Positions 1,598 to 53,264 of a stretch of DNA of 64,000 bases are shown here, in pieces. The notes under the pieces were generated by a model. That model did not search any database and was not told the origin of the DNA. It saw only the letters and a list, made by a program, of their open reading frames with translations. The DNA is taken from NCBI RefSeq assembly GCF_033441515.1, contig NZ_JAWQJT010000001.1, positions 1,922,001-1,986,000 of the forward strand, written 5' to 3'. Source of the DNA: Amycolatopsis solani (GTDB lineage Bacteria > Actinomycetota > Actinomycetes > Mycobacteriales > Pseudonocardiaceae). Positions within the stretch are counted from its first letter, which is position 1; each line of letters opens with the position of its first letter. A program made the translations under genes and the position numbers.

Positions 1598-1648
1598 GGG
1601 TGACAGCCTAGTTGGCTGCCGCCTGTGATCCGTGCCACTGTGAAACCC

Positions 1649-3034
1649 ATGGGGAGCACCGAGCGGGATCTCGCCGCCGACTTGCAGCGCATCATCCGGG
1701 CGACCGCCGACTCCGTGACCGGGAGCGCGGGCAACGAGCTGATCGACCGCGTGACCGGGCACGTCGGGCCGCTGCCGGGCGTGGTGGTCGTGACCCGCAA
1801 CTGGCCGATGTGGGAGCACGTGAACATCCAGTGCGGTGTCGACGCCTACCTCGCCGAGTTCGGCACCGACGTCGGCTGGTTCGGCATCGCGGGTGGCCAG
1901 CGCACGCACGAGGACCTGATCGGGATGCTCGTGATCGCGCGCAAGCAGGGCACGTTCGAGCTCGGCTCGGTCGACTACACGACGACGGCGACCGGCCCCG
2001 AAGACGCGACCGAGGCGGTGCAGCTCGGGCTCGTCGGCACGCGGGCGCCCGGCGGCGAGCCGGTGCTGCTCGCGATCCGCGGCGCGAACCAGCAGTGGGG
2101 GCAGATGGAGTGCCGGCTGGAGGTGCTGGCGACGTCGCGGGCGATCGCGACGGAGGTGCGTGACCGCGTCGAGCGCTCGATGGCCCGGCACGACGTGCTG
2201 CGCGGGCAGGTGCTGGCCTTCGGCGCCAGCGAGAACCGCGGCAACGACCTCCTGACGTTCTTGCCGCGGCCGACGCTGACCGGCGAGGAGGTGGTGCTCC
2301 CCGACGGCGTGCTCGACGCGATCGAGCGGCACACGGTCGGCATCGCCGAGCACGGCGAGCGGCTGCTGGCCGCCGGGCAGCACCTCAAGCGCGGCCTGCT
2401 CCTGCACGGCCCGCCCGGCACCGGCAAGACGCACACCGTCCGCTACCTGATGAGCCGCCTCCCGGACACCACGGTGATCATCCTGACCGGCACGGCGATG
2501 CGCTTCGTCGCCCGCGCGGCGGCGCTGGCCCGGCGGCTGCAGCCCAGCGTGGTCGTGGTGGAGGACGTCGACCTGATCGCCCAGGACCGCGGCATGGGCC
2601 CGGACGCGCACCCCTTGCTGTTCACCCTGCTCGACGCGATGGATGGCGTGGGCGGCGACGCCGACGTGACGTTCCTGCTCACGACGAACCGCGCGGGCGC
2701 GCTGGAGAAGGCGCTGGCCGACCGCCCGGGCCGGGTCGACCTGGCGGTGGAGATCCCGCTCCCGGACGCGGCGGGGCGGGAGGCACTGCTGCGGTTGTAC
2801 GCGCGGGGGTTGAAGCTGACGGCGGATCTCGAGCCGATCGTGGCGGCGACGGAGGGGGTGACGGCGTCCTTTGCGAAGGAATTGCTGCGGCGGGCGTCGT
2901 TGCGGTCGCTGGCTTCGCGGCCGGAGGAGGACGTGGTGGTCGGGGACGAGGAGCTGACCACGGCGTTGCGGGAGATGCAGGACGCGCGGAGTGTCCTGAC
3001 GCGGTCTTTGCTGGGCAGTTCAGCTGCGCAGTGA
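1649..3034 (+). CDS. AAA+ ATPase, Bcs1/26S-type
   Basis: About 461 residues. The N-terminal 200 residues are an uncharacterised domain; the AAA+ module follows, with Walker A GPPGTGKT at about residues 254-261, Walker B VVVVEDVD, sensor-1 TTNR and the arginine-finger segment RPGRVD. The domain order resembles actinobacterial ATPases annotated as Bcs1-like or proteasome-related, but no substrate can be inferred. The start is uncertain: ATG at 1649 is used, and an in-frame GTG lies at 1625. The final codons and stop fall inside a 27-bp sequence repeated exactly at 3924-3950. Confidence 0.82.
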   Translation: MGSTERDLAADLQRIIRATADSVTGSAGNELIDRVTGHVGPLPGVVVVTRNWPMWEHVNIQCGVDAYLAEFGTDVGWFGIAGGQRTHEDLIGMLVIARKQGTFELGSVDYTTTATGPEDATEAVQLGLVGTRAPGGEPVLLAIRGANQQWGQMECRLEVLATSRAIATEVRDRVERSMARHDVLRGQVLAFGASENRGNDLLTFLPRPTLTGEEVVLPDGVLDAIERHTVGIAEHGERLLAAGQHLKRGLLLHGPPGTGKTHTVRYLMSRLPDTTVIILTGTAMRFVARAAALARRLQPSVVVVEDVDLIAQDRGMGPDAHPLLFTLLDAMDGVGGDADVTFLLTTNRAGALEKALADRPGRVDLAVEIPLPDAAGREALLRLYARGLKLTADLEPIVAATEGVTASFAKELLRRASLRSLASRPEEDVVVGDEELTTALREMQDARSVLTRSLLGSSAAQ

Positions 3035-3043
3035 GCCCGGGAA
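3017..3043. repeat. 27-bp direct repeat, left copy
   Basis: Identical over 27 bases to 3924-3950. This copy spans the last codons and stop of the AAA+ ATPase gene. The right copy spans the stop and last codons of the M1 peptidase gene. The flanking bases differ, so the identity ends sharply at both sides. See the insertion finding. Confidence 0.9.
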
Positions 3044-3097
3044 TGCCTCCGGGAAACCACATGGCGTGTTTCGACGTTGCTGAGCGAGACTACCCGG

Positions 3098-3925
3098 ATG
3101 TCGAGCCTGGACAGCACCTGGTCACCTGCGGACAATCCCCATGCCATCGCGGTTTCGGAAGCGCAGTGGTGGTTCCGGTCGGCAATGTTGACCGGCCTCC
3201 GGATCCACGGCGAAGACGATTGCCGGGTGGGATTCAGTTCGCGTCAGATCGATGCCCGTCAGCTGGTCGTGGCGCTCTGGCAGCTTCGGCTAGCTGAGAA
3301 GTTGCAACAGCACGCGCTGCGCGAACTCGGGGTGGATCTGACCGTGATCGCCGCGCTCAGCCGGGCCCGCACGTCGTTCGACAAGGTGATGCCGGGGCTT
3401 CGGCACATGCGAGATGGAATGCTGCACTTCGACGAGTGGACACGAGGCACCGGTGCCGGGCCGCAGAGGAAGGCGGTCGTCGCGGGGACTGCTCCGCGGG
3501 AAGTTGCCGCCGAATACTCGCGTTTCGGTTATGACCCGGCCACTGACGAAGTGACGTTCGGGCCGTACACCTTCGAAGTCACCGCCGCGCTTGATGCCGC
3601 GAGAGGTCTGGCCGACGCGATATATACGGCTGCGTGCGCGGTGGACCTGCGAAACGCAGCTGCCTTGCGGACTCGAACCGCCGAGGTGCTCCGCTCCGCT
3701 GAGCTCGGAGGAGCGGCCGGGCGAGCCACACGAGTGGTGCTTGCGGCGGATACGCGGGTGTGGGTGTCGCTGGAGAATTCTGCGGAGCCGGATCGTGGGC
3801 TGGTGGCCGAGCGTGTTGTCGAGGCGCTTACCGCAGCGAATCTCAGGCTGGTCTCTTCGCGGGAACCGCAGAGTGAAGACTGGGCGGAACGGCTCGAGAA
3901 CGGCGAGGCTCTCTTCGTGGAGTAG
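3098..3925 (+). CDS. Uncharacterised protein with HEPN-like R-D-x3-H motif, on a repeat-bounded insert
   Basis: About 275 residues with no signal peptide or membrane segment. Residues 105-110 read RDGMLH, followed by FDEW. This matches the R-[NDH]-x3-H active-site pattern of HEPN-domain RNases, in a helical context, but the assignment to HEPN is only an inference. The start is ATG at 3098; an in-frame TTG lies at 3077. More codons end in A or T here than in the neighbours (for example GCGATATATACG near 3616), which suggests foreign origin. The gene fills the space between two perfect 27-bp direct repeats, between convergent genes whose ends otherwise fit together. It may be a toxin-like or defence-type cargo gene, or simply an unknown protein. 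Confidence 0.7.
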   Translation: MSSLDSTWSPADNPHAIAVSEAQWWFRSAMLTGLRIHGEDDCRVGFSSRQIDARQLVVALWQLRLAEKLQQHALRELGVDLTVIAALSRARTSFDKVMPGLRHMRDGMLHFDEWTRGTGAGPQRKAVVAGTAPREVAAEYSRFGYDPATDEVTFGPYTFEVTAALDAARGLADAIYTAACAVDLRNAAALRTRTAEVLRSAELGGAAGRATRVVLAADTRVWVSLENSAEPDRGLVAERVVEALTAANLRLVSSREPQSEDWAERLENGEALFVE

Positions 3926-3950
3926 TTCAGCTGCGCAGTGAGCCCGGGAA
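3924..3950. repeat. 27-bp direct repeat, right copy
   Basis: Exact copy of 3017-3043. It overlaps the stop of the inserted gene (TAG 3923-3925) and, on the minus strand, carries the last residues (PGSLRS) and stop of the M1 peptidase gene. Removing 3044-3950 would leave a single copy and place the ATPase and peptidase 3' ends in a short convergent overlap. Confidence 0.9.
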
Positions 3951-5333
3951 GAGGTCGGCGTCCGCGGGCAGTGTCGTGCCGTGGAACCACGCCGTGAAGA
4001 ACTCCTTCAGGTTCTTGCCGCTGATCTGCGTCGCCATCGCCTCGAAGTCCGCCCACGTCGCGTTCGCGTGGCGGTAGCGAGTGGGCCATTCGCGGAGCAG
4101 GCGGTCGAACGCCGGGTCGCCGATCTCGCGGCGCAACGCGTGCAGCGCCAGGATTCCCTTGTTGTACACGCCTTCGAACTCGTGGCCCTGGCCCATCGCG
4201 ACCAGCTTCTGCGCCCAGAAGTCCGTGCTGCCTCGGGTGATTTCGATGGCCGCGCGGTAGCGGTCGTCCAGGGTCTGGCCCTCGCGCTCGGCCCACAGCC
4301 ACTGCGCGTACGACGCGAAGCACTCGTTCAGGCAGATGTCGGACCAGTCGCGCAGCGATACCGAGTCGCCGAACCACTCGTGGGCGTTCTCGTGCACCAG
4401 GGTCGGGAGGTCGGCCCACTTCGCGTACGTCGGCCGGGTTTGCGTCTCCAGCGAGAAGTGGACGTCCTCGTTCAGGAAGATGCCGCCGGCCGCGGATTGG
4501 GGGTACGGGCCGAACTTGGCGCTCAGGAAGCCGAGCACCTCCGGGAGGCGGTCGCCGATCGCGCGGTGGCCTTCGGCGCCCGGTGCGTACGCCGAGACCA
4601 CCGGGGTGCCGTCCGGCAAAGTCGACTTGTCGATGCTGAACTTGCCGATCGCGATCGTCGTCAGGTAGCTCGCCACCGGGTTCGGCTCGGTCCACGTGCC
4701 CGGCGGGCCTTCGCGGCCGTTCGAAACCACCGTCCAGCCGGCCGGGACACGCGCGGTGAGCGTGAATGTCGCCTTGTCGCGCGGGGTTTCGTTCACGGGG
4801 TACCAGAACGCGGCCGAGTGCGGCTCGCCGACCATGAACGCGCCGCCGTCGGCCGAGTGCTGCCAGCCGTTCTCGCTGCCGCCTTCGTGCGGGGTCTTCG
4901 CCGGGTCGCCGTCGTACCGCACCCGCGTGCGGAACGTCGCACCGGCGCGGATCGGCGACGACGGCGTGATCGCCAGCTCGTGCGCCTTTTCCCGGCCGAA
5001 GCGCGCCGGCTGTCCGTCGACGTCGACGCTTCGCACGGTCAGCCCGCGCAGGTCGAGGTCGAAGCGGCTCAGGTCCTGGGTCGCCCGCGCGGTGACCGTC
5101 GTGTCGCCGTCGAGGTGACCGCTCGGCGGGTCGTAGGTCACGCCGACCTGGTAGCCGAGGGCGTCGTAGCCGCCGTTGCCGTCGTCCGGGTAGTACGGGT
5201 CGCCGGCGCCGGACGCACCCGGCGCGGGGTGCAGGGGCGGTGGCTGGGGCACGCCGGAGACGGCGTCACCGCTGCACGCCGCGGCGACGATCACCGCGGC
5301 GCAGACGGCGAGGGCAGCGAGTCGGCGGCGCAT
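3927..5333 (-). CDS. Secreted lipoprotein M1-family zinc metallopeptidase
   Basis: A 468-residue aminopeptidase-like protein. The N-terminus MRRRLAALAV... ends in the lipobox AAAC, so it should be lipid-anchored outside the membrane. The gluzincin signature is complete: HENAH at residues 314-318 with the third zinc ligand Glu337 in LNECFA, the HExxH-x18-E spacing of family M1. The exopeptidase GxMEN motif is replaced by a segment reading GGIFLNEDVHF. Length is shorter than classical PepN (about 850), typical of actinobacterial secreted M1 lipoproteins. ATG 5333 is chosen over ATG 5345 because it places the arginines at the very N-terminus. Confidence 0.88.
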   Translation of the reverse strand: MRRRLAALAVCAAVIVAAACSGDAVSGVPQPPPLHPAPGASGAGDPYYPDDGNGGYDALGYQVGVTYDPPSGHLDGDTTVTARATQDLSRFDLDLRGLTVRSVDVDGQPARFGREKAHELAITPSSPIRAGATFRTRVRYDGDPAKTPHEGGSENGWQHSADGGAFMVGEPHSAAFWYPVNETPRDKATFTLTARVPAGWTVVSNGREGPPGTWTEPNPVASYLTTIAIGKFSIDKSTLPDGTPVVSAYAPGAEGHRAIGDRLPEVLGFLSAKFGPYPQSAAGGIFLNEDVHFSLETQTRPTYAKWADLPTLVHENAHEWFGDSVSLRDWSDICLNECFASYAQWLWAEREGQTLDDRYRAAIEITRGSTDFWAQKLVAMGQGHEFEGVYNKGILALHALRREIGDPAFDRLLREWPTRYRHANATWADFEAMATQISGKNLKEFFTAWFHGTTLPADADLFPGSLRS

Positions 5334-5408
5334 GCCCACCACCATAGGTGATGGATTGCGATCACTTGGTCACGTTCCGGAGCAGGCCTTTTGTGGTTAG
5401 GTGGCCGC

Positions 5409-13175: not shown

Positions 13176-14384
13176 TCAGCCCAGCATCAGCAGGACCTGC
13201 AGTTCGCCGACCAGGAAGCCGATCACCCCGCCGACGGCGATGAGCTTCCACTCGTCCTGGCGGAACGCCGGGCGCAGCAGTCCCTCGAACTCCAGCGGCG
13301 TCAGCGCCAGCATCCGCTGCTCGATCACCTTGGCGACGTCCATCGCCTCGGTCAGGTAGCCCTCGGCGTACCGGGCCGTGTCCGGGAGCTGCTCCAGCGC
13401 CTTCCGCGCCGCCGCGTGCTTCATCTCCCGCAAGCGCGTGCCGCCCACTGTCCACGAGAGCGGCATCTGCGTGTCCACCGCGGACGACACCATCTGCTCC
13501 ACCAGCGCCGCCAGGCGGTCGGCGCGGGGGCCGCGCAGCACCGCGTCCAGGAGGTTCTGGACGGTCAGGACCTCGGTCGCGATCAGCTCGCCGTACTGCC
13601 GGGCCACCTCCGCGCGCCGCCGCTGGAACTTGCCCTGGAAGATCACCCGGCCGACGCGGACCGGCTCGCGGGGGACGAAGATCAGCTTGATCGCCAGCCA
13701 GTCGGTGAACAGCCCGATCACGCCGCCGAACGCCGGCAGCACCCACGGCTCGCGGGTCAGCGCCCACACCACCGTCTGGACGACGCCGAGCCCGAAGCCG
13801 AAGTAGATGCCCATCCGCGCGATGAACGCCATCTCCGGGCGGGACGTCTCGCGGATCAGCCGGACCAGCAGCGCGCGGTCGCGCGTCAGCCGCTGGACCG
13901 TCATGTGCTGGACGTCGAGGACCTCGTCGAGGTTCTCGCGGACGTCGTCGAGGAACTCCCGCACCAGCCGCGGCGCGGACGCCTGGACCTGCTTGATCAG
14001 CATTTCCTGGGCGAGCGTCGGCATGACCTCCCACAGCCGCGGGTGGTGTTCGGCGAGCACCTCGCGCGCGATGTGGTCGACCGCGCGCAGCAGCGGCTGC
14101 TCCAGCTCGGTCGTGATGATCACCGGGTCGATCCGGTCGAGCACCTCGCGGAGATCGAGGAGGTTTTCCGTCAGCAGCTCGGTCGCGACCGCCGCCATCC
14201 GGCCGCCGTGCTTCGGGACGACGCCCTGCCAGCCGAGCAGCGGCGGGATCCCGACGAAGTCCAGCGGCCGGAACATCATCTCGATGGCGACGCGCTTGGT
14301 GACGTACCCGATCAGCGCCGCGACGAACGGCATCGCCGCGTAGACCGGCCAGTGCAGCGCGAGGTCGTGCAGGACAGCGTCCAC
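13176..14384 (-). CDS. DUF445 family membrane protein, paralogue 3 of a tandem trio
   Basis: 402 residues. The N-terminal hydrophobic helix (AAMPFVAALIGYVTKRVAIEMMF) is followed by a long helical region, a central hydrophobic hairpin (MGIYFGFGLGVVQTVVWALT...FGGVIGLFTDWLAIKLIF) and a C-terminal segment ending VIGFLVGELQVLLMLG. This is the DUF445 (YheB/YjiN-like) layout with duplicated G[FY]xTxxxAIxMMF-type motifs. Its cytoplasmic helical parts are long. Function is not known; some members are linked to the cell envelope. It is last in a three-gene minus-strand run; 40 bases separate it from the next copy. A GTG is used as start. Confidence 0.85.
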   Translation of the reverse strand: MDAVLHDLALHWPVYAAMPFVAALIGYVTKRVAIEMMFRPLDFVGIPPLLGWQGVVPKHGGRMAAVATELLTENLLDLREVLDRIDPVIITTELEQPLLRAVDHIAREVLAEHHPRLWEVMPTLAQEMLIKQVQASAPRLVREFLDDVRENLDEVLDVQHMTVQRLTRDRALLVRLIRETSRPEMAFIARMGIYFGFGLGVVQTVVWALTREPWVLPAFGGVIGLFTDWLAIKLIFVPREPVRVGRVIFQGKFQRRRAEVARQYGELIATEVLTVQNLLDAVLRGPRADRLAALVEQMVSSAVDTQMPLSWTVGGTRLREMKHAAARKALEQLPDTARYAEGYLTEAMDVAKVIEQRMLALTPLEFEGLLRPAFRQDEWKLIAVGGVIGFLVGELQVLLMLG

Positions 14385-14424
14385 CCCGACCTCCCTCGCG
14401 GTCCCGAGAGCGAAACCGTACCGG

Positions 14425-15633
14425 CTACCCGAGCAGGGCGAGCACCTGCAGTTCGCCGACGAGCCCGCCGATCACCGCGCCGACGGCGATCAGCTTCCAC
14501 TCGTCCTGCCGGAACGCCGGCCGCAGCAGCTGCTCGAACTCGAGCGCGCTCAGCTTCCGCATCCGGTCGACGATCGTGTTGCGCACGTCGAGGGCGTTGA
14601 TCGCGTAGTTCTCCGCGTACCGGATCGTCTCCGGGACGCGCTCCGCGGCCTTCGCCGCCGCCGTCTGCTTCATCTCCTGGAACTTCCGCGTCCCGACGGC
14701 GATGGCGACGAACGGCTTGACCACGCTGGCCTGCGCGTCGATCGTCTTCTGCACCTCGCGGGTGATCATCGCGAACAGCTTGTCGGACTTCGGCCCGCGC
14801 AGCACGGCTTCCAGCAGGTGGGGGATGGTGATGATCTCGCGCGCGATCATGTCGCCGTAGTCGGCGGCCACCTGGTCGCGGCGCTTCTGGAAGACGCCCT
14901 GCCAGGTGTAGAGCCCGAAGAACCGGCGGGGCTCGCGCGGCAGGAAGATCATCTTGAGCGCGAGCCAGTCGGTGAACCAGCCGATGAGCAGGCCGAACAG
15001 CGGGAGCACGATCGGCGACTTCGTCAGCGCCCAGACGACCAGTTGCACGCAGCCGAGGCTGAACCCGAACCAGATCCCGGAGCGGGCGATGAACCGCATC
15101 TCCGGCCGGGAGATGTCGCGGATCAGCCGGTTCAGCAGCGCCTTGTCGCGCACGAGGTTCGTCACGACCATGTGCTCGAGGTCGAGGACGTCCTCGATGT
15201 TGTCGGCGATCTCCCGCATGATCTTGGTGATCGCCTTCGGCGCTTCGGCCTGCACGCGTTTGAGCAGCAGTTGCTGCGCGCTGTTCGGCAGCACCTCCCA
15301 CAGCCGCGGCTGGTAGGTCTCCATCACGTCGCGGGTGACGTCCTCGACGACCCGCAGCAGCGGCTGCTCGATCTCCTTCGCCACCTGCGCCGGGTCGAGC
15401 CGCGCGAAGATCTCTTTGGGGTCGACGAGGTTCGTCGTCAGCATCGCGGTGGCGGTGGCGGCCATCCGCTCGGCGTTGGCCGGCAGCACGCCCTGCCAGC
15501 CGAAGGGTTTGACGCCGACGAACTCGAGCGGCCGGAACATCATCTCGATGGCGACGCGCTTGGTGACGTAGCCGATCAGCGCCGCGATGAACGGCATGGT
15601 GACGTACACCTGCCAGTGCGTGCCGAAGTCCAC
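14425..15633 (-). CDS. DUF445 family membrane protein, paralogue 2
   Basis: 402 residues with the same plan as its neighbours: MPFIAALIGYVTKRVAIEMMF near the N-terminus, a central GIWFGFSLGCVQLVVWALT...LLIGWFTDWLALKMIFLP block, and the ending VIGGLVGELQVLALLG. It is closer in sequence to the 15657-16877 copy than to the 13176-14384 copy (shared FQEMKQTAAAKAAERVPETI-like and VRNTIV stretches), suggesting the trio arose by successive duplication. The central loop REPRRFFGLYTWQGVFQKRR differs from the other two copies. Function unknown. Confidence 0.85.
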   Translation of the reverse strand: MDFGTHWQVYVTMPFIAALIGYVTKRVAIEMMFRPLEFVGVKPFGWQGVLPANAERMAATATAMLTTNLVDPKEIFARLDPAQVAKEIEQPLLRVVEDVTRDVMETYQPRLWEVLPNSAQQLLLKRVQAEAPKAITKIMREIADNIEDVLDLEHMVVTNLVRDKALLNRLIRDISRPEMRFIARSGIWFGFSLGCVQLVVWALTKSPIVLPLFGLLIGWFTDWLALKMIFLPREPRRFFGLYTWQGVFQKRRDQVAADYGDMIAREIITIPHLLEAVLRGPKSDKLFAMITREVQKTIDAQASVVKPFVAIAVGTRKFQEMKQTAAAKAAERVPETIRYAENYAINALDVRNTIVDRMRKLSALEFEQLLRPAFRQDEWKLIAVGAVIGGLVGELQVLALLG

Positions 15634-15656
15634 GCGCGCACGCTATCGGCCCGGCG

Positions 15657-16877
15657 TCAGTGCAGCAGGAGCAGCACCTGGAGTTCACCCACCAGGCCAC
15701 CGATGACCGCGCCGACCGCGATGAGCTTCCATTCGTCCTGCTTGAAGGCCGGCCGCAGGATGCCCTCGAACTCGATCGGCGTCAGCTGCTGCATCTTCTC
15801 GACGATCGTGTTCCGGACGTCGAGCGCGCCGGTGGCGTAGCTCTCGACGTGCTTCACCGTTTCGGGGAGGTAGGCGATGACCTTCTCGGCCGCCGCGCGC
15901 TTCATCTCCTGGTACTGCCGGCCGCCGATGGTCAGCGCGACCAGCGGTTTGGCGACGCTCGCCTGCTGGTCGACCGTGCGCTGGACCTCGCGGGTGATCA
16001 TCGCGAACAGCTTGTCGGCGCGCGGCCCGGTGAGCACGGCCTCCAGCACGTTCCGCACGGTGAGCACCTCGTCGGCGATCAGCGCGCCGTAGTCGGCGGC
16101 GACCTCCTGGCGCCGCTTCTGGAACATGCCCTGCCAGCGGAAGAAGCCGAACCTGCGCGGCTCACGCGGGTAGAAGATCATCTTGAGGGCGAGCCAGTCC
16201 GTGACGAAGCCCGTGACGAAACCGAAGATCGGCATGATCAGCGGCTCCTTCGTCAGCGCCCACGCGACGAACTGGACGAGCCCGATCACGAACCCGAACC
16301 AGATCCCGGACCGCGCGATGAACTTGAACTCGGGCGCGGCGACCTCGCGGATCAGCCGGCAGGTCAGCGACTTGTCGCGGACCATGGCCTCGATGAGCAT
16401 GGCGTTGACGTCGAGGACGTCGTCGATGTTGGTCGAGACCTCCCGCATGAGCCGCTTCACGACGGCCGGCGCCTGCGCCTGGACCTGCGCGACGAGCAAC
16501 CGCTGCGCGCGCGCCGGCAGGAGTTCCCAGAGCCGCGGCTGGTAGGTCTCCATGACTTCGCGGGTGACCTCTTCGACGGCCTTGAGCAGCGGCGGTTCGA
16601 GCTCTTTGACCATTTCTTCCGGATCGAGCCTGCTGAAGATCTCCTGCGGGTCGACGAGGTTGCGGGTCAGCAGGTCGACGGCGGTGGTGGCCATCCGCCG
16701 CGCGTTCGCCGGGATGACGCCCTGCCAGCCGAGGAACGGCCGGATCCCCCGGAATTCGAGGGGCCGGAACATCATCTCGATGGCCACCCGCTTGGTCAGG
16801 TAACCGATCAGGGCGGCGATGAGCGGCATGGTCGCGTAGACGTGCCAGTGCGCGCCGATGTCGGCGAGTATGTCCAC
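15657..16877 (-). CDS. DUF445 family membrane protein, paralogue 1
   Basis: 406 residues, the promoter-proximal member of the trio. The N-terminal helix MPLIAALIGYLTKRVAIEMMF, the central GIWFGFVIGLVQFVAWALT...FVTGFVTDWLALKMIFYP block and the ending VIGGLVGELQVLLLLH match DUF445. Between the hydrophobic parts are about 150 residues of predicted amphipathic helices. It reads away from the DivIVA-like coiled-coil gene across a 129-bp shared upstream region, so the two could be co-regulated envelope or polarity factors; that link is only inferred. Confidence 0.85.
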   Translation of the reverse strand: MDILADIGAHWHVYATMPLIAALIGYLTKRVAIEMMFRPLEFRGIRPFLGWQGVIPANARRMATTAVDLLTRNLVDPQEIFSRLDPEEMVKELEPPLLKAVEEVTREVMETYQPRLWELLPARAQRLLVAQVQAQAPAVVKRLMREVSTNIDDVLDVNAMLIEAMVRDKSLTCRLIREVAAPEFKFIARSGIWFGFVIGLVQFVAWALTKEPLIMPIFGFVTGFVTDWLALKMIFYPREPRRFGFFRWQGMFQKRRQEVAADYGALIADEVLTVRNVLEAVLTGPRADKLFAMITREVQRTVDQQASVAKPLVALTIGGRQYQEMKRAAAEKVIAYLPETVKHVESYATGALDVRNTIVEKMQQLTPIEFEGILRPAFKQDEWKLIAVGAVIGGLVGELQVLLLLH

Positions 16878-17987: not shown

Positions 17988-18016
17988 GGCCCGGCGTCTC
18001 GTCGAGACGCCGGGCC
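17988..18016 (+). terminator. Hairpin terminator after the DivIVA-like gene
   Basis: Arms 17988-18000 (GGCCCGGCGTCTC) and 18004-18016 are exact reverse complements with a 3-base loop. It starts 33 bases after the stop codon. No T-run follows, as is common for actinobacterial hairpin terminators. Confidence 0.7.
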
Positions 18017-18042
18017 CACCGCTGTTCCGTGGCTCGCTGGGG

Positions 18043-18096
18043 TCGCGAATGACTCATTCGGGACCTGGGATGTCTCGAATGACTCATTCGCGACGT
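18043..18096. repeat. Paired GAATGASTCATTC repeat, unit 1
   Basis: Two GAATGACTCATTC 13-mers start at 18047 and 18077, exactly 30 bp apart, with outer TCGCG/CGCGA arms that make the whole unit roughly palindromic. One of five such pairs in the window. Confidence 0.85.
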
Positions 18097-18156
18097 GCGT
18101 TCCCCGGTGGCCCGGCGGCTGCCTCGGGTCCATCGCTGTTCCGTGGCTCGCCGAGG

Positions 18157-18210
18157 TCGCGAATGACTCATTCGGGACCTCGGAGGTCTCCAATGACTCA
18201 TTCGCGACGC
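18157..18210. repeat. Paired GAATGASTCATTC repeat, unit 2
   Basis: Copies of the 13-mer start at 18161 and 18191 (the second begins with C instead of G), 30 bp apart. Flanks such as GCTGTTCCGTGGCTCGC are shared with unit 1, so the two units arose by a longer local duplication. Confidence 0.85.
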
Positions 18211-18284
18211 GCGCGTTCCCCCGGTGGCCCCGGCCGCGGCCTCGGACCACCGCTGCTCCGCCGGCGAAAGCTCCCACCGGGGCA

Positions 18285-28320: not shown

Positions 28321-28716
28321 TTATTTGACGTTCCCGGCGACCTTCTCGACTTTCAGCCGCACGACGACGCGCTCGGTCTCCGGACCTTCGGGCGGCGGGT
28401 CCTGGGCGAGGTACTTGTGGCTCAGCGTCCTGGGGAGCGCCTTGGCCGGGTCGGGGGTGAGCTCGGCGGTGCCGCGCAGCTGCGTGTGCCGGTACGGGTT
28501 TTCGGCGTCGGTGATCGAGACGCTCAGGCGGGGGTCGCGCCGCAGGTTGCGGACCTTCCGCCGGTCCTCGGTGGCGCTGAAGACGAGGTCGCCGCCGTCG
28601 AGCCCGATCCAGACGACGGAGGTTTGCGGCCCGCCGTCGGCGTCGAGGGTGGCGACGGTGGCGAAGTTCTTCCCGTCGATCAGGGCGCGGACGGCGTCCG
28701 AGAGGGTGAGGGGCAT
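28321..28716 (-). CDS. PPOX-class F420/FMN-dependent protein, copy B
   Basis: 131 residues, paralogous to copy A: TVATLDADGGPQTSVVWIG, DLVFSATEDRRKVRNLRRDPRLSVSI, then LSHKYLAQDPP. The shared DRRKxRNxRRDPRxSxS block lies where the phosphate-binding arginines of the family are found. ATG 28716 is chosen; an open frame extends upstream only through the repetitive intergenic DNA. No partner enzyme is linked, so its role is unassigned. Confidence 0.85.
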   Translation of the reverse strand: MPLTLSDAVRALIDGKNFATVATLDADGGPQTSVVWIGLDGGDLVFSATEDRRKVRNLRRDPRLSVSITDAENPYRHTQLRGTAELTPDPAKALPRTLSHKYLAQDPPPEGPETERVVVRLKVEKVAGNVK

Positions 28717-28776
28717 ATCACGCCGAACCGGTGCCGGGTCGGGGCTATTCCGCAGGCTGGGAGGGGCTGGGGGAGG

Positions 28777-28829
28777 TCGCGAATGAGTCATTCGGGGCGT
28801 TGGGGGTCCCGAATGAGTCATTCGCGACG
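28777..28829. repeat. Paired GAATGASTCATTC repeat, unit 3
   Basis: GAATGAGTCATTC starts at 28781 and 28811, 30 bp apart, with outer TCGCG/CGCGA arms as in units 1 and 2. Confidence 0.85.
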
Positions 28830-28960
28830 TTTGGGGCGGGGCGGCGCCGGGCGGGGCGGGTAGGGCGAGGTGGGGCGGGCAGCGGGGCGGGGACGCGTAA
28901 AGCGAGGCGAACCGGCACCGGTGCGGGCCTGTTCCGGGTGCTGGGTGGGTTTGGTGCGGG

Positions 28961-29013
28961 TCTCGAATGAGTCATTCGGGACGTCAGAGGTCCCGAATGA
29001 GTCATTCGCGACA
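28961..29013. repeat. Paired GAATGASTCATTC repeat, unit 4
   Basis: GAATGAGTCATTC starts at 28965 and 28995, 30 bp apart. The right outer arm CGCGA is kept; the left arm is TCTC instead of TCGC. Confidence 0.85.
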
Positions 29014-29090
29014 CTTGGCGGGGCAACGCTGGGCGGCGCGGGTAGGGAGGCGGAGCTGAGGCGGTGCGGGCCTATTCCGCGCGCACCCGA

Positions 29091-29145
29091 CGACAGGAAT
29101 GAGTCATTCACTACGCCAGACGACAGGAATGAGTCATTCACTACG
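29091..29145. repeat. Paired GAATGAGTCATTC repeat, unit 5 (direct form)
   Basis: GAATGAGTCATTC starts at 29097 and 29127, again 30 bp apart. Here the flanks repeat directly (CGACAG before and ACTACG after each copy), unlike the inverted outer arms of units 1-4. It overlaps the ispF stop codon at 29141-29143. Confidence 0.85.
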
Positions 29146-44526: not shown

Positions 44527-45837
44527 TCACATCGCGTGGGTGAACGCGCCCCAGCCGGTGTCCAGCCGGCCGTAGGACGAGAGGGCGATGTTGTTGTTGG
44601 GGTAGTACAAGAGGTCGCCGTCCGCGTTCACGCCGAGCACGTCGGCGTAGCCGTCGCCGCTGAAGTCGGACGCGAACACGTGCTTGAACGGCTGCCAGCC
44701 GGTGCCGATCTGCCGCGACGTCGAGCGGGAGATCGTGAGCCCGTTGTTCGGGTAGTACAGGAGGTCTCCGGCCGCGTTCACGCCCAGGACGTCGGCGTAG
44801 CCGTCGCCGCTGAAGTCGGCGGCCATCACGTGCCGGAAGGTGCCCCAGCCCGTGTCCAGGCGCTGGGCCGTCGAATCCGAGACGGCCAGTCCGTTGTTCG
44901 GGTAGTACACGAGCTCGCCGGCGGCGTTGACGGCCAGCACGTCCGCGTACCCGTCGCCGCTGAAGTCCCCCGCCGTGACCTGGAGGAAGGCACCCCAGCC
45001 GGTGGCCAGGCGGACCGCCGGGGAGAGCGCCAGGCCGTTGTTGGGGTAGTACACGAGCTCACCCGCGGCGTTGACGCCCAGGACGTCGGCGTAGCCGTCG
45101 CCGCTGAAGTCGGCGGCCGTCACGTGCCGGAAGGTGCCCCAGCCCTGGCCGATCCGCTGGGCGGTCGAGTCCGAGACGGCCAGTCCGTTGTTCGGGTAGT
45201 ACACGAGCTCGCCGGCGGCGTTGACGCCGAGCACGTCCGCGTAGCCGTCGCCGCTGAAGTCGGAAACCCGTTCCCGGTCACGGCAGTTGCGGCTGGCGAC
45301 GTTGCGCCAGGTGGCCGACGAGCCGGTGTACGTCACGCCGTTGAACGACGCCGGCACGCGTTCCGCACCCGCGAAGCCCCACGTCACGCTCCCGTTGCCG
45401 TTGCTGTCGAAACCCTGCTCGTAGTGCAGGTGCGGGTGGCCGTTCGAAGTCGGGCCGGTCGCGCCGACCCGGCCGATCAGCTGGCCCTGCCGGACCTGCG
45501 TGCCCGCCGAAACCTGGCGGGACTGCAGGTGCAGGTAGGTCGTGAAGTGGCCGCCGCCGTGGTTGATCTGGATCACGTTGCCCGCGTTGTCGTGGTAGAA
45601 GGACTGGTTGACGGTGCCGCTCGCCGGGGCCAGCACGGCGGCGCCTTCGGTGCCGGTCTGGTTGGGCTCGCGCACCATGTCCAGCGCCGGGTTGTGCCCC
45701 CAGGTGTCCAGCCGCCACTGCTGGCCGCACTCGAACGGGAGCTGGAACGACGGCGCCGCCTGCGCTTGCGGTCCACTGAGGACGGTCAGGCCGGTGGCGA
45801 TGCCCCCGAGGACGAGGAGAACTCGTCGGAGAAACAT
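44527..45837 (-). CDS. Secreted M23 endopeptidase with five-repeat propeller domain
   Basis: 436 residues. After a signal peptide (MFLRRVLLVLGGIATGLTVL...AQA) comes an M23/LytM-type zinc peptidase: His48 and Asp53 (GHNPALD) and HPHLHYEQG supply the metal ligands, so it should cleave peptidoglycan cross-links. From about residue 195 to the end are five tandem repeats of about 48-50 residues, each with DFSGDGYADVL (an FG-GAP-like calcium loop), YYPNNGLA and a GWGxF turn. The number and length fit a five-bladed tachylectin-like propeller, which could bind wall sugars. It begins 10 bases after the NlpC/P60-like gene. Confidence 0.88.
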   Translation of the reverse strand: MFLRRVLLVLGGIATGLTVLSGPQAQAAPSFQLPFECGQQWRLDTWGHNPALDMVREPNQTGTEGAAVLAPASGTVNQSFYHDNAGNVIQINHGGGHFTTYLHLQSRQVSAGTQVRQGQLIGRVGATGPTSNGHPHLHYEQGFDSNGNGSVTWGFAGAERVPASFNGVTYTGSSATWRNVASRNCRDRERVSDFSGDGYADVLGVNAAGELVYYPNNGLAVSDSTAQRIGQGWGTFRHVTAADFSGDGYADVLGVNAAGELVYYPNNGLALSPAVRLATGWGAFLQVTAGDFSGDGYADVLAVNAAGELVYYPNNGLAVSDSTAQRLDTGWGTFRHVMAADFSGDGYADVLGVNAAGDLLYYPNNGLTISRSTSRQIGTGWQPFKHVFASDFSGDGYADVLGVNADGDLLYYPNNNIALSSYGRLDTGWGAFTHAM

Positions 45838-45847
45838 GGCGGGCCTC

Positions 45848-47158
45848 CTATTCGGCGTGGGTGAACGAAGCCCAGCCGGAGGCCAGCTGGCGCGAAGCGG
45901 ACAGTGCGAGGCCGTTGTTCGCGTAGTACTGCAGGTTTCCCGCCGCGTCGACGCCGAGGACGTCGGCGTAGTCGTCGCCGCTGAAGTCCGAGGCGAACAC
46001 CTGGCTGAACGATCCCCAGCCGGCGCCGATCTGCTGCGCGGTGGACGAGGAGATGGCGAGCCCGTTGTTGGGGTAGTAGATGAGGTTGCCCGCCGCGTTC
46101 ACGGCGAGGACGTCGGCGTACCCGTCGCCGCTGAAGTCCGCGGCCATCACGTGCTTGACCGTGTCCCAGCCGGTGTCCAGCCGGACCGGCGAGGAGAGCG
46201 CGAGCCCGTTGTTGGGGTAGTACAGGAGTTCGCCCGCGGCGTTGACGCCGAGGATGTCCGCGTGCCCGTCGCCGCTGAAGTCGCCGGCCGCCACGTGCCG
46301 GAAGGAGCCCCAGCCGCTGCCGATCTGCTGCGCGGTCGACGAAGAGATCGCCAGGCCGTTGTTGGGGAAGTAGACGAGCGCGCCGGCGGCGTTGACGCCG
46401 AAGAGGTCCGCGAAGCCGTCGCCGCTGAAGTCGCCCGCCGCCACGTGCGAGTAGGCGCCCCAGCCGGTGTCCAGACGCCGTGCCGTCGAGTCCGAGACGT
46501 TCAGGCCGTTGTTCGGGTAGTACATGAGGTCACCGGCGGAATTCACACCGAGCACGTCCGCGTACCCGTCGCCGCTGAAGTCGGAAACCCGTTCGCTGTC
46601 GGCTTTCCGGTAGCGGATGAACGTGTATTCGTCCATTTCCCCGGAGCTGTCCTTGCCGAGCAGGCCGGCGTTGTTCTTGGCGTACGGGTTCTGCACGGTC
46701 TGGCCCGTCTTGTTGAACGAGTAGACGTACGCACCGTCGCCGTGGTGGGCCGCGTTGACCCAGTGCGAGAACAGTTCGATGTGGCCGCCGCTCCCGCCGC
46801 CGTCGTCGTCGCGGACCATCGCGTCACCCGGCCGCAGCGAGTCGCGGGGGATGACTTGCATCCCGTTGCCCGCGCGGGCTCTGGCGAGGAACTGGTCGGT
46901 GGTCAGGCTCGAGCCCAGGTGCCAGGCCATCGACACGAGACCGGAACAGTCGCGGCGGTAGGAGTGGGTGCCGTCGGCGTCGGTCGCGAACGGCCCGTCC
47001 ATGTCGTAGGTGAGCCCGCGGTTCACCCAGTTCTGGGCCCTGGCCATGATTTCCGGGCGGCTGACCGCGGTGTTCAAGGTGGACGCCGACGCGGGTGCCG
47101 GCGCGGCGACGAGCGGCACGACGAGGGCGCCCAGCAAGGCGGCGAGGAAGATTCGCAT
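45848..47158 (-). CDS. Secreted NlpC/P60-like hydrolase with five-repeat propeller domain
   Basis: 436 residues, the same length as its neighbour. A signal peptide (MRIFLAALLGALVVPLVAAPAPASA) is followed by a catalytic domain of about 160 residues with the nucleophile in DCSGLVSMAWH and a histidine in GHIELFSHW, an NlpC/P60 fold arrangement that cleaves stem peptides or amide bonds. Residues from about 195 carry five repeats like those of the M23 protein (DFSGDGxADxLGV...YYPNNGLAIS). The C-terminal halves are clear paralogues, while the catalytic halves are unrelated. It is separated from the VanX-like gene by 101 bp. Confidence 0.86.
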   Translation of the reverse strand: MRIFLAALLGALVVPLVAAPAPASASTLNTAVSRPEIMARAQNWVNRGLTYDMDGPFATDADGTHSYRRDCSGLVSMAWHLGSSLTTDQFLARARAGNGMQVIPRDSLRPGDAMVRDDDGGGSGGHIELFSHWVNAAHHGDGAYVYSFNKTGQTVQNPYAKNNAGLLGKDSSGEMDEYTFIRYRKADSERVSDFSGDGYADVLGVNSAGDLMYYPNNGLNVSDSTARRLDTGWGAYSHVAAGDFSGDGFADLFGVNAAGALVYFPNNGLAISSSTAQQIGSGWGSFRHVAAGDFSGDGHADILGVNAAGELLYYPNNGLALSSPVRLDTGWDTVKHVMAADFSGDGYADVLAVNAAGNLIYYPNNGLAISSSTAQQIGAGWGSFSQVFASDFSGDDYADVLGVDAAGNLQYYANNGLALSASRQLASGWASFTHAE

Positions 47159-50993: not shown

Positions 50994-53264
50994 ATGGTCT
51001 TGTCACGTCCGCTCGCGCTCGTCGTCGCCCTGGTGGCCGCGCTCGTCCCGGCAGTAGCCGCACCAGCTGCTCAAGCCGCCGTCACCTCGCCCGCTTCCTC
51101 CTTCACCGCCGTGCAGCCCACGCGGTTCCTCGACACCGTTCGCGGGGTCGGGATCGCGATCGGGCCGGTGGGGGCGAAGACCACCGTGACCGGCAGCGCG
51201 GCCTCGCTCGCGCCCGTCAACAGCACCGCCGTCGTCGTGAACCTCTGGGTCGAGAGCCCGACCGCCGACTCCGCGGTCACCGCCTTCACGCACGGGCAGG
51301 CCCGGCCGGCGCTGCCCAGCATGCAGGTGCAGGCCGGCAAGCGGCGGTCCAACCAGGTCACCGTGCAGGTCGGGGCCGACCGGACTGTCGACTTCTACAA
51401 CGAGGCCGGCTCCGTCCACCTCATCGCCAGCATCGTCGGCTACTACACGACCGACGCCGGCTCGCGGTACACGCCGGTCAGTCCCTCGCGGCTGCTCATC
51501 AGCTCGCTCGGGAACGGCACCACGACCAAGCTGAGCCTGGTCGACGAAGTGCCCGCCACGGCCACCGCCGTGACGTTCGCCCTCACGCTGACCAACCCGT
51601 CCGCGGCCACCTACGCCTCCGTGTTCCCGCACAGCACGCCGCGGCCGACCATGGCCAGCGTCGCCGCCTACCCCGGTGGGCAGGGCACGAACCTGGTCAC
51701 CGTCAAGATCGGCGCGGACCGGTCGATCGACTTCTACAACCTGGCCGGTCAGGTCGAGGTGTACGCCGACCTCGTCGGCTTCTACGCCACCGACTACGGC
51801 GCCTTCTTCACCCCGGTCGCCCCGGAGCGGGTGCTGGACAGCCGCAGCGGGCTCGGGACGTGGGACGGTCAGCCCAAGAAGATCGGCGCGAACAGCGACC
51901 TCGCGTACCGGCTGCAGCCGTCGATCCCCTCGAACGCGCTCGCCGTCGTCCTGAACGTGACCGGCTATTCGGCGACCGCGACCACCGCCGTCACGGCGTG
52001 GGACCGCCCGTCGACCACCCAGCCCGACCCCGGCCTGTCCCTCGCACCGGGACAGACGATCTCGGTGGCGGCCGCGCCCGTCGTGTCCGCGGTCGGCCCG
52101 GCGGTCAACGCCTCGTCCGACACGGACCGCTCGGTCTACGTCCACAACCGCGCCGGCACGGTCGACGTGTCGGCCGACCTCGCCGGCTACTTCACCCTGC
52201 CGGCCGCCGACTGCCTCAACCAGTGCGTTTCGACGTGGAGCAGTTACTCGTGGCACCAGGGCACCGGGTACATCGGGACGCCGAAGCCGATGGCCGGCCT
52301 GAGCGACGTCGTCGCCATCGCCGGCTGGACCTCGCACGGCTACGCGCTGCGCGTCGACGGGACCGTCCGGGCGTGGGGCTCCAACTCGTCCGGCCAACTG
52401 GGCAACGGCTGGTACAGCGGGGCGTCGCGCGCGCCGGTCCCGGTCGTCGGGCTGACCTCGGTCACGGCCATCGCGGCCGGTGAGATCGAAGGGTTCGCCC
52501 GGCGCTCCGACGGCACCGTGTGGCGGTGGGGGAACGCCGTCAACGCACCCGCGCAGGTCGCCGGCCTCACCGGGGTCACCGCCATCGCGGCCGCGCGAAA
52601 CACCGCGTACGCGCTGAAGTCCGACGGCACCGTGTGGGCCTGGGGCAGCAACGAACGCGGCGAGCTGGGCACCGGCTCGACCGCGGCGAGCTCCGCCACG
52701 CCGGTGCGCGTCTCCGGCCTGAGCGGCGTCCAGACGATCGGCAGCGGCGACGGGTACAGCGCCTATGCCGTGAAGGCCGACGGCACCGTGTGGGCCTGGG
52801 GCGACAACAGCCACAACCAGCTCGGCACCGGCGTCGCGTGCCCGACCTCGAGCTGCCTGTCCCGCACGCCGGTGCCGGTGGCCGGCCTGACCGGCGTCAC
52901 CGCCGTGACCGGCAACTACGGGGCGGCCTACGCGCTGAAGTCCGACGGCACCGTCCACTCCTGGGGCGACAACGACCGCGGCCGGCTCGGCAACGGCGTG
53001 AGCTGCGAATCGGCGGGCCCGAACTGCACGTCGGCGGTCCCGGCCCCGGTGCGCGACCTCACCGGCGTCAAGGCGATCGGCTTTTTCAACGGCGGTGGGT
53101 ACGCCGTCAAGACCGACGGCACGGTCTGGGGCTGGGGCGACAACCACGAGCTCGAGCTCGGGCAAGGGGTCACGGCGTACCCGTGGTGGGCCGCGGCCCC
53201 GGTCCAGGTGCCCGGCCTCAGCCGTGTCAAGGCCATCGCGAGCGGGCTGGCCCTGGGAGAGTGA
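50994..53264 (+). CDS. Secreted protein with RCC1-type repeats
   Basis: 756 residues. A signal peptide (MVLSRPLALVVALVAALVPAVAAPAAQA) is followed by an N-terminal region of about 400 residues of repeated beta-sandwich character (three segments each with RxLDxRxGxG or VGYYxTxxG-like endings), then at least six RCC1-like blades with the marks SDGTVWAWGSN, GQLGNG and GLTGVTAIA. Extracellular RCC1-like propellers bind ligands or proteins, but no specific function is known. Cysteine pairs such as DCLNQC suggest extracellular stability. It starts 4 bases before the hydrolase gene ends its leader. Confidence 0.84.
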   Translation: MVLSRPLALVVALVAALVPAVAAPAAQAAVTSPASSFTAVQPTRFLDTVRGVGIAIGPVGAKTTVTGSAASLAPVNSTAVVVNLWVESPTADSAVTAFTHGQARPALPSMQVQAGKRRSNQVTVQVGADRTVDFYNEAGSVHLIASIVGYYTTDAGSRYTPVSPSRLLISSLGNGTTTKLSLVDEVPATATAVTFALTLTNPSAATYASVFPHSTPRPTMASVAAYPGGQGTNLVTVKIGADRSIDFYNLAGQVEVYADLVGFYATDYGAFFTPVAPERVLDSRSGLGTWDGQPKKIGANSDLAYRLQPSIPSNALAVVLNVTGYSATATTAVTAWDRPSTTQPDPGLSLAPGQTISVAAAPVVSAVGPAVNASSDTDRSVYVHNRAGTVDVSADLAGYFTLPAADCLNQCVSTWSSYSWHQGTGYIGTPKPMAGLSDVVAIAGWTSHGYALRVDGTVRAWGSNSSGQLGNGWYSGASRAPVPVVGLTSVTAIAAGEIEGFARRSDGTVWRWGNAVNAPAQVAGLTGVTAIAAARNTAYALKSDGTVWAWGSNERGELGTGSTAASSATPVRVSGLSGVQTIGSGDGYSAYAVKADGTVWAWGDNSHNQLGTGVACPTSSCLSRTPVPVAGLTGVTAVTGNYGAAYALKSDGTVHSWGDNDRGRLGNGVSCESAGPNCTSAVPAPVRDLTGVKAIGFFNGGGYAVKTDGTVWGWGDNHELELGQGVTAYPWWAAAPVQVPGLSRVKAIASGLALGE

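Follow-up and report, generated by a model that had tools for sequence, protein, structure and literature searches.

A single gene between duplicated overlapping 3' ends of convergent ATPase and M1 peptidase genes in Amycolatopsis

Convergent genes with overlapping 3' ends ought to be poor targets for insertion, since one of the two would be broken in most cases. In Amycolatopsis solani such a site is nonetheless filled, without damage, by a gene that we call X, and the question that this locus raises is how X came to lie there. A preliminary description had taken the perfect 27-bp direct repeat that bounds the insert as the mark of a recent gain, either by duplication of a 27-bp target or by recombination into a site at a gene 3' end. 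In this work, we analyzed the locus within a window of 64,000 nucleotides (the whole stretch of DNA studied, to which all coordinates refer) and compared it with related genomes and with X homologues at other places. The features concerned are the following.

1625..3034, plus strand: AAA ATPase gene, open reading frame of 469 aa (PF00004, E 3.3e-16); host gene with its 3' end inside the left repeat copy
3017..3043, plus strand: left repeat copy, exact; final 18 bases of the ATPase gene plus 9 bases past its stop
3098..3925, plus strand: gene X, the insert, 275 aa from the ATG at 3098; R-x4-H motif protein of a family without a name
3924..3950, plus strand: right repeat copy, exact; 3 bases outside the M1 gene and the last 24 bases of that gene
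3927..5345, minus strand: M1 peptidase gene, open reading frame of 472 aa (PF01433, E 2.5e-19; PF17900, E 3.2e-6); convergent with the ATPase gene

The two copies at 3017-3043 and 3924-3950 (AGTTCAGCTGCGCAGTGAGCCCGGGAA) are identical, and the bases on both sides of them differ immediately, so that the repeat is as exact and sharp-edged as first described. A third copy was found neither in the window nor in the genome of 10,277,369 bases, with up to three mismatches allowed, and 100 shuffled windows gave no such repeat; with two copies only in the genome, an ordinary genomic repeat was ruled out. A longer repeat of 46 nt at 83% was also discarded, its right-hand part encoding the conserved C-terminus of X. 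The copies had been equated with the 3' ends of the two host genes, which is correct insofar as the left one holds the ATPase end and the right one the M1 end, but the left copy continues beyond the ATPase stop and the right one starts outside M1, its first two bases being the end of the X stop codon. Only 15 bp of the repeat are doubly coding, for ATPase and M1. When the flanks are joined with a single copy, both host frames end intact and overlap by 15 bases, the same as in relatives; excision would leave a compact convergent pair, as had been predicted, although what the two genes would share is this 15-bp coding overlap and not the whole repeat. Thanks to the duplicated overlap each host gene owns a complete tail and neither neighbour is damaged, and it is this provision of separate tails to ATPase and M1 that would have allowed the insertion event to survive. 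Scanning 2900-4050 for promoters and terminators yielded a single promoter-like match, within X, and no terminators.

Other repeats were observed in the window. Non-perfect repeated blocks around GAATGACTCATTCG-like palindromes lie at 18011-18213 and 28705-29145, a stretch of ~1.25 kb occurs in three tandem copies at 13183-16863 (69-87% alike in the parts listed), and repeat arrays with spacings of about 150 nt and about 110-270 nt, probably repeats within proteins, are found at 44535-46642 and 52333-53168.

The comparison with 80 Amycolatopsis genomes, including that of the window (G000), supports the proposed insertion. An M1 match was present in all 80 and its 3' end was read in every one: in 44 there is no adjoining ATPase gene, and 36 hold the convergent ATPase-M1 pair. 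Thirty of these 36 pairs have overlapping ends without an insert, three carry X (G000, G025 and G040) and three have other spacers, namely a tandem duplication of ~385 bp in G012, ~105 bp in G059 and 2 bp in G079. The overlap computed for the 30 empty pairs is 15 bases in 17 and 18 bases in 2, and 11 more distant ones differ; the values for G033 and G036 (950 and 89) are not meaningful, the ATPase match being only partial there. A scan of named loci for the ATPase gave 12, all from Amycolatopsis and partly overlapping the 80-genome set, with nine empty convergent pairs, one locus with an insert (sp. NBRC 101858, L051) and two without M1 beside the ATPase. The single-copy empty site expected of an insertion thus exists in relatives. 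A strong X match was obtained in 4/80 genomes, a count from which the weak partial matches of G027 and G029 (E about 8e-4) were left out; in the fourth, G056, the ATPase-M1 site is empty and X is located elsewhere. A pairing of ATPase and X was also considered and found no support, 33/36 ATPase-M1 pairs being without X. The ATPase gene adjoins M1 in just 36/80 genomes and may itself be accessory; it resembles the IetA models of PADLOC weakly (best E 1.6e-13). In several genomes without the ATPase (L083, L084, L086, L092, L093 and others), an inverted repeat like GCATTTAGAGGACTAAATGC was seen just past the M1 end.

What, then, was inserted? Between the copies we found one convincing gene, with its stop at 3925 and ATG 3098 as the best start, a form of 282 aa from TTG 3077 being possible. 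That it uses more A/T-ending codons than its neighbours was confirmed (GC3 of 0.74 vs 0.93-0.96 in four neighbours). R105 and H110 of X are invariant across 73 aligned sequences and make up an R-x4-H motif that fits the R-x4-6-H motif of HEPN RNases, which the consulted part of PMC11087260 gives as a hallmark of HEPN domains. Its motif and neighbours make X a probable HEPN-type RNase, acting by abortive infection. The protein had zero matches in Pfam, PADLOC and PHROGs at E up to 1 and zero among PDB sequences, and fold searches with Foldseek against PDB and viral models stayed without a match at E 0.001; NCBIfam returned a single weak and unlikely match for one of 4 X proteins, and the 73 family members hit 13 Pfam families weakly, most often DUF3584 (12/73, best E 0.0038). 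By tblastn at E 1e-5, X had no match in the annotated records of 72,556 plasmids and 50,697 phages. The family is present in 6 IMG/VR contigs, 1 of which had been caught with a single-protein query. Neighbours of X homologues include phage structural, integrase, transposase and CD-NTase genes. In G056 and L059, family members sit as single genes amid phage structural genes according to PHROGs, and for the other 5 viral contigs the phage context was judged from the shared start of a portal-type open reading frame. The copy of the window is not in a prophage, its neighbours being the ATPase and M1 genes. We regard X as a candidate phage-borne defence gene.

Neither the recent origin ascribed to this insert nor a 27-bp target is supported by the other filled sites. 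First, three species have the site filled, and over most of the gene their X alleles are only 58-69% identical, a difference of 31-42% of bases. Second, the repeat is not constant: it is exact over 27 bp in G000, ~38 bp with 2 mismatches in G025 and ~28 bp with 1 mismatch in G040, at odds with the duplication of a 27-bp target. In G040 (L067) we also observed that the X copy is broken, with shifted frames and the middle part missing, and that both repeat copies are retained. Third, the alleles and their flanks are not equally apart. Between G000 and G025 the flanks are 93.5% (ATPase) and 93.9% (M1) identical, as against 61-69% for X, measured in three parts; between G000 and G040, X is a mosaic, 88% identical in its 5' part and 58-66% in the remainder, with flanks 84-89% identical, the ATPase value for G040 being that of the best-matching part only. 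As three species share the filled site, with repeats of variable length and X alleles far apart relative to the flanks, a fresh duplication of a 27-bp target does not account for the locus. The joint explanation that we find best, and consider probable, is the capture of X together with an old duplication of the gene overlap, which would have been kept in part by coding constraint, the alleles being exchanged between species. For the window itself, the 12 bp by which the repeat exceeds its doubly coding part have all stayed intact; taken alone, this would suit a recent event, and the window's own X copy may be a recent re-acquisition.

The relationships among alleles bear on how the three sites came to be filled. 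On the flank tree, built from 21 ATPase + M1 sequences taken from the 36 pairs, X must have changed between present and absent at least 3 times. A quick tree of 58 X proteins, comprising G000, G025, a G040 fragment and 55 of the listed homologues, placed the site alleles together in a single 7-row clade (SH-aLRT 100). The other rows of this clade are P0064, which is the G025 protein in shorter form, P0003, P0007 and P0022. Taken together, the single clade, the divergence and the tree changes suggest that the filling of the site would date far back or stem from a single source lineage, and that its alleles have moved since. Alternatively, there could have been a single ancestral insertion inherited vertically, with a very fast-evolving X and many exact losses, for which the repeats supply a route. 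The one clade would agree with this, as would the GGCGTG found at a similar place after the left copy in all three sites and the 5' part of X, whose identity between G000 and G040 about equals that of the flanks (with the limit on the ATPase value given above). Such a history is doubtful, however: between G000 and G025, 31-39% of X bases are different, compared with about 6% of flank bases, and the 5' part of X places G000 nearer to G040 than to G025, contrary to the flank tree.

The junctions themselves were also compared. In G000 and G040 the matching of the left copy ends after GGGAA, and at all three filled sites GGCGTG comes no more than about 30 bases further on. This fits a single ancestral duplication, 38 bp or longer, that has since eroded in its non-coding parts. 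There may instead have been two or more separate left junctions. X may have been inserted independently into the same overlap in each lineage, with left junctions of its own, from a donor X already joined to an M1 tail, and to this we give a small but appreciable chance. It would explain that the left copies end differently on their right-hand side and that the X frame of G025 lacks the leader of G000 and G040, its GTG start lying directly where the left copy ends. Furthermore, P0003 ends by reading through a tail that resembles the repeat and is of M1 type, with no ATPase stop, and judging from this protein end it probably lies at an M1 end. Against independent insertions, the common GGCGTG may mark one ancestral junction.

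Comparison of G025 with 25 empty sites showed that the 40 bases before its overlap are as in the empty sister G017 (40/40) and that its right copy is as in G077 (36/36). Of the informative sites, 4 in the final 300 bases of M1 join G025 to G000 and none to G017 or G069, and 3 in the final 150 bases of the ATPase gene join it to G017 and none to G000; 150-300 bases from the ATPase end, 2 sites favour G000 and 1 favours G017. These data give a hint that X arrived together with the M1 side of G025. M1 as a whole leans to G000, though (12 sites, with 5 for G017 and 5 for G069), perhaps reflecting the history of the M1 gene rather than that of the insert, and the hint is therefore a weak one. As a signal of recombination in the flanks, the informative sites are few, and M1 and ATPase favour different partners.

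Is there any sign of a recombinase? As already stated in the preliminary description, the insert contains none (between 3044 and 3923); recombination into a 3'-end site had been considered there, with a recombinase in trans as something to look for. Integration by such an integrase at a gene 3' end, with the repeat as att core as at tRNA genes, would explain why the repeat restores the end of a gene and why three species are filled at the same site, and a tyrosine integrase gene does adjoin the X homologue of G315. However, the repeat ends differ among the three filled sites, so that a constant att core is not seen, and the 27-mer has no further copy in the genome. Moreover, the X homologues at other places (n=25: 6 viral contigs, 13 genomes of the family of G772, 5 of the family of the window and G561) have no exact flanking repeat of at least 15 bp within 600 or 1000 bases, the longest having 14, where G056 and G561 contribute just 107 and 87 bases of one flank and some X copies are partial or broken (G212, G189, G882, G844). 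Thus, the repeat belongs to this site and not to the element, and a site-specific integrase appears highly improbable.

We return to the capture of X with duplication of the overlap, the history that we favour, and to how it might proceed. X, an accessory gene of a phage-associated family, would have been captured in Amycolatopsis at the overlapping ATPase and M1 3' ends. This event would have doubled the overlap, probably over about 38 bp or more, with no dedicated recombinase involved. The simplest way would be one-sided recombination, homologous on the M1 side and with a join at a few shared bases opposite. Such homology-facilitated illegitimate recombination yields a duplication of this kind in a single step. 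End joining might also have served, as might a prior tandem duplication of the overlap such as that of G012 (L079, about 2379-4124), which spans the ATPase-M1 overlap and is without X. The proposal that the overlap was duplicated in tandem first, X entering the spare spacer afterwards, draws on this very case; G012 belongs to a different lineage, though, and no further ATPase or M1 remnant was seen between the copies of the filled sites, and we hold this order of events to be unlikely. After the capture, the filled locus would have been passed between species, most likely through homologous recombination in the flanks, with exact loss possible through recombination between the repeat copies, and the 27 bp of today would be the remainder after coding constraint and limited erosion. 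An insertion in overlapping ends without duplication of the overlap would break a gene, and so selection alone would keep only the events that duplicate it.

It is tempting to speculate, as a tentative and on balance improbable extension, that phage-borne defence genes land singly at convergent overlapping ends: X, pre-joined to an M1 tail, would find homology there and a few shared bases opposite, the overlap being duplicated as a by-product and the host genes left intact. If this were true, X would move between species with a core gene tail as handle and no recombinase, and repeats of 27-38 bp would let one-sided recombination be recognized in nature.

With regard to known systems, the locus is an insertion with long target duplication, a kind already described for restriction-modification genes of Helicobacter pylori (Nobusato et al. 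2000, as cited in passages of PMC1643837, PMC3031569, PMC4978471 and PMC3154945). As in those accounts, there is a long direct repeat of the target with variable length, relatives have the empty site with a single copy, and neither transposase nor integrase is present in the insert or needed. The cases from H. pylori, as cited there, differ in that here a single non-restriction gene lies at overlapping convergent ends and its alleles are far more diverged than the flanks. The association of such insertions with restriction-modification, a tendency and not part of their definition, does not extend to X, which had no restriction-modification match in the family library searches. A limited literature search on insertions at convergent gene overlaps retrieved nothing on point, and the overlapping convergent target and the X family seem to be new. 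Integrase-free hotspots with recombination in flanking core genes, as outlined in PMC5635113, likewise turn over genes between conserved neighbours without a mobile element, whereas here one gene only is concerned, a direct repeat is present and flank recombination is inferred. The circle model for moved genes of Arabidopsis, in the portion of PMC2869330 consulted, shares the repeats derived from the target and the loss or gain by recombination between them, but deals with a plant genome and with moves within it. The filled, empty and tandemly duplicated versions within one genus constitute a small natural record of gene gain and loss without a mobile element. As to X itself, the closest likeness is with Tha, a prophage-borne HEPN defence protein of Staphylococcus aureus, going by the passages at hand of PMC11087260: both are single phage-carried proteins, of ~300 aa in the case of Tha, with an Arg-x4-His motif, which reads R-N-S-I-M-H near the C-terminus of Tha and R-D/N-x3-H in the middle of X, so that the likeness consists of motif, size and phage carriage. 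With its presence in phage contigs and beside a CD-NTase gene, its invariant R-x4-H and no convincing match in four family libraries, the X family is a defence gene candidate that can be put to the test.
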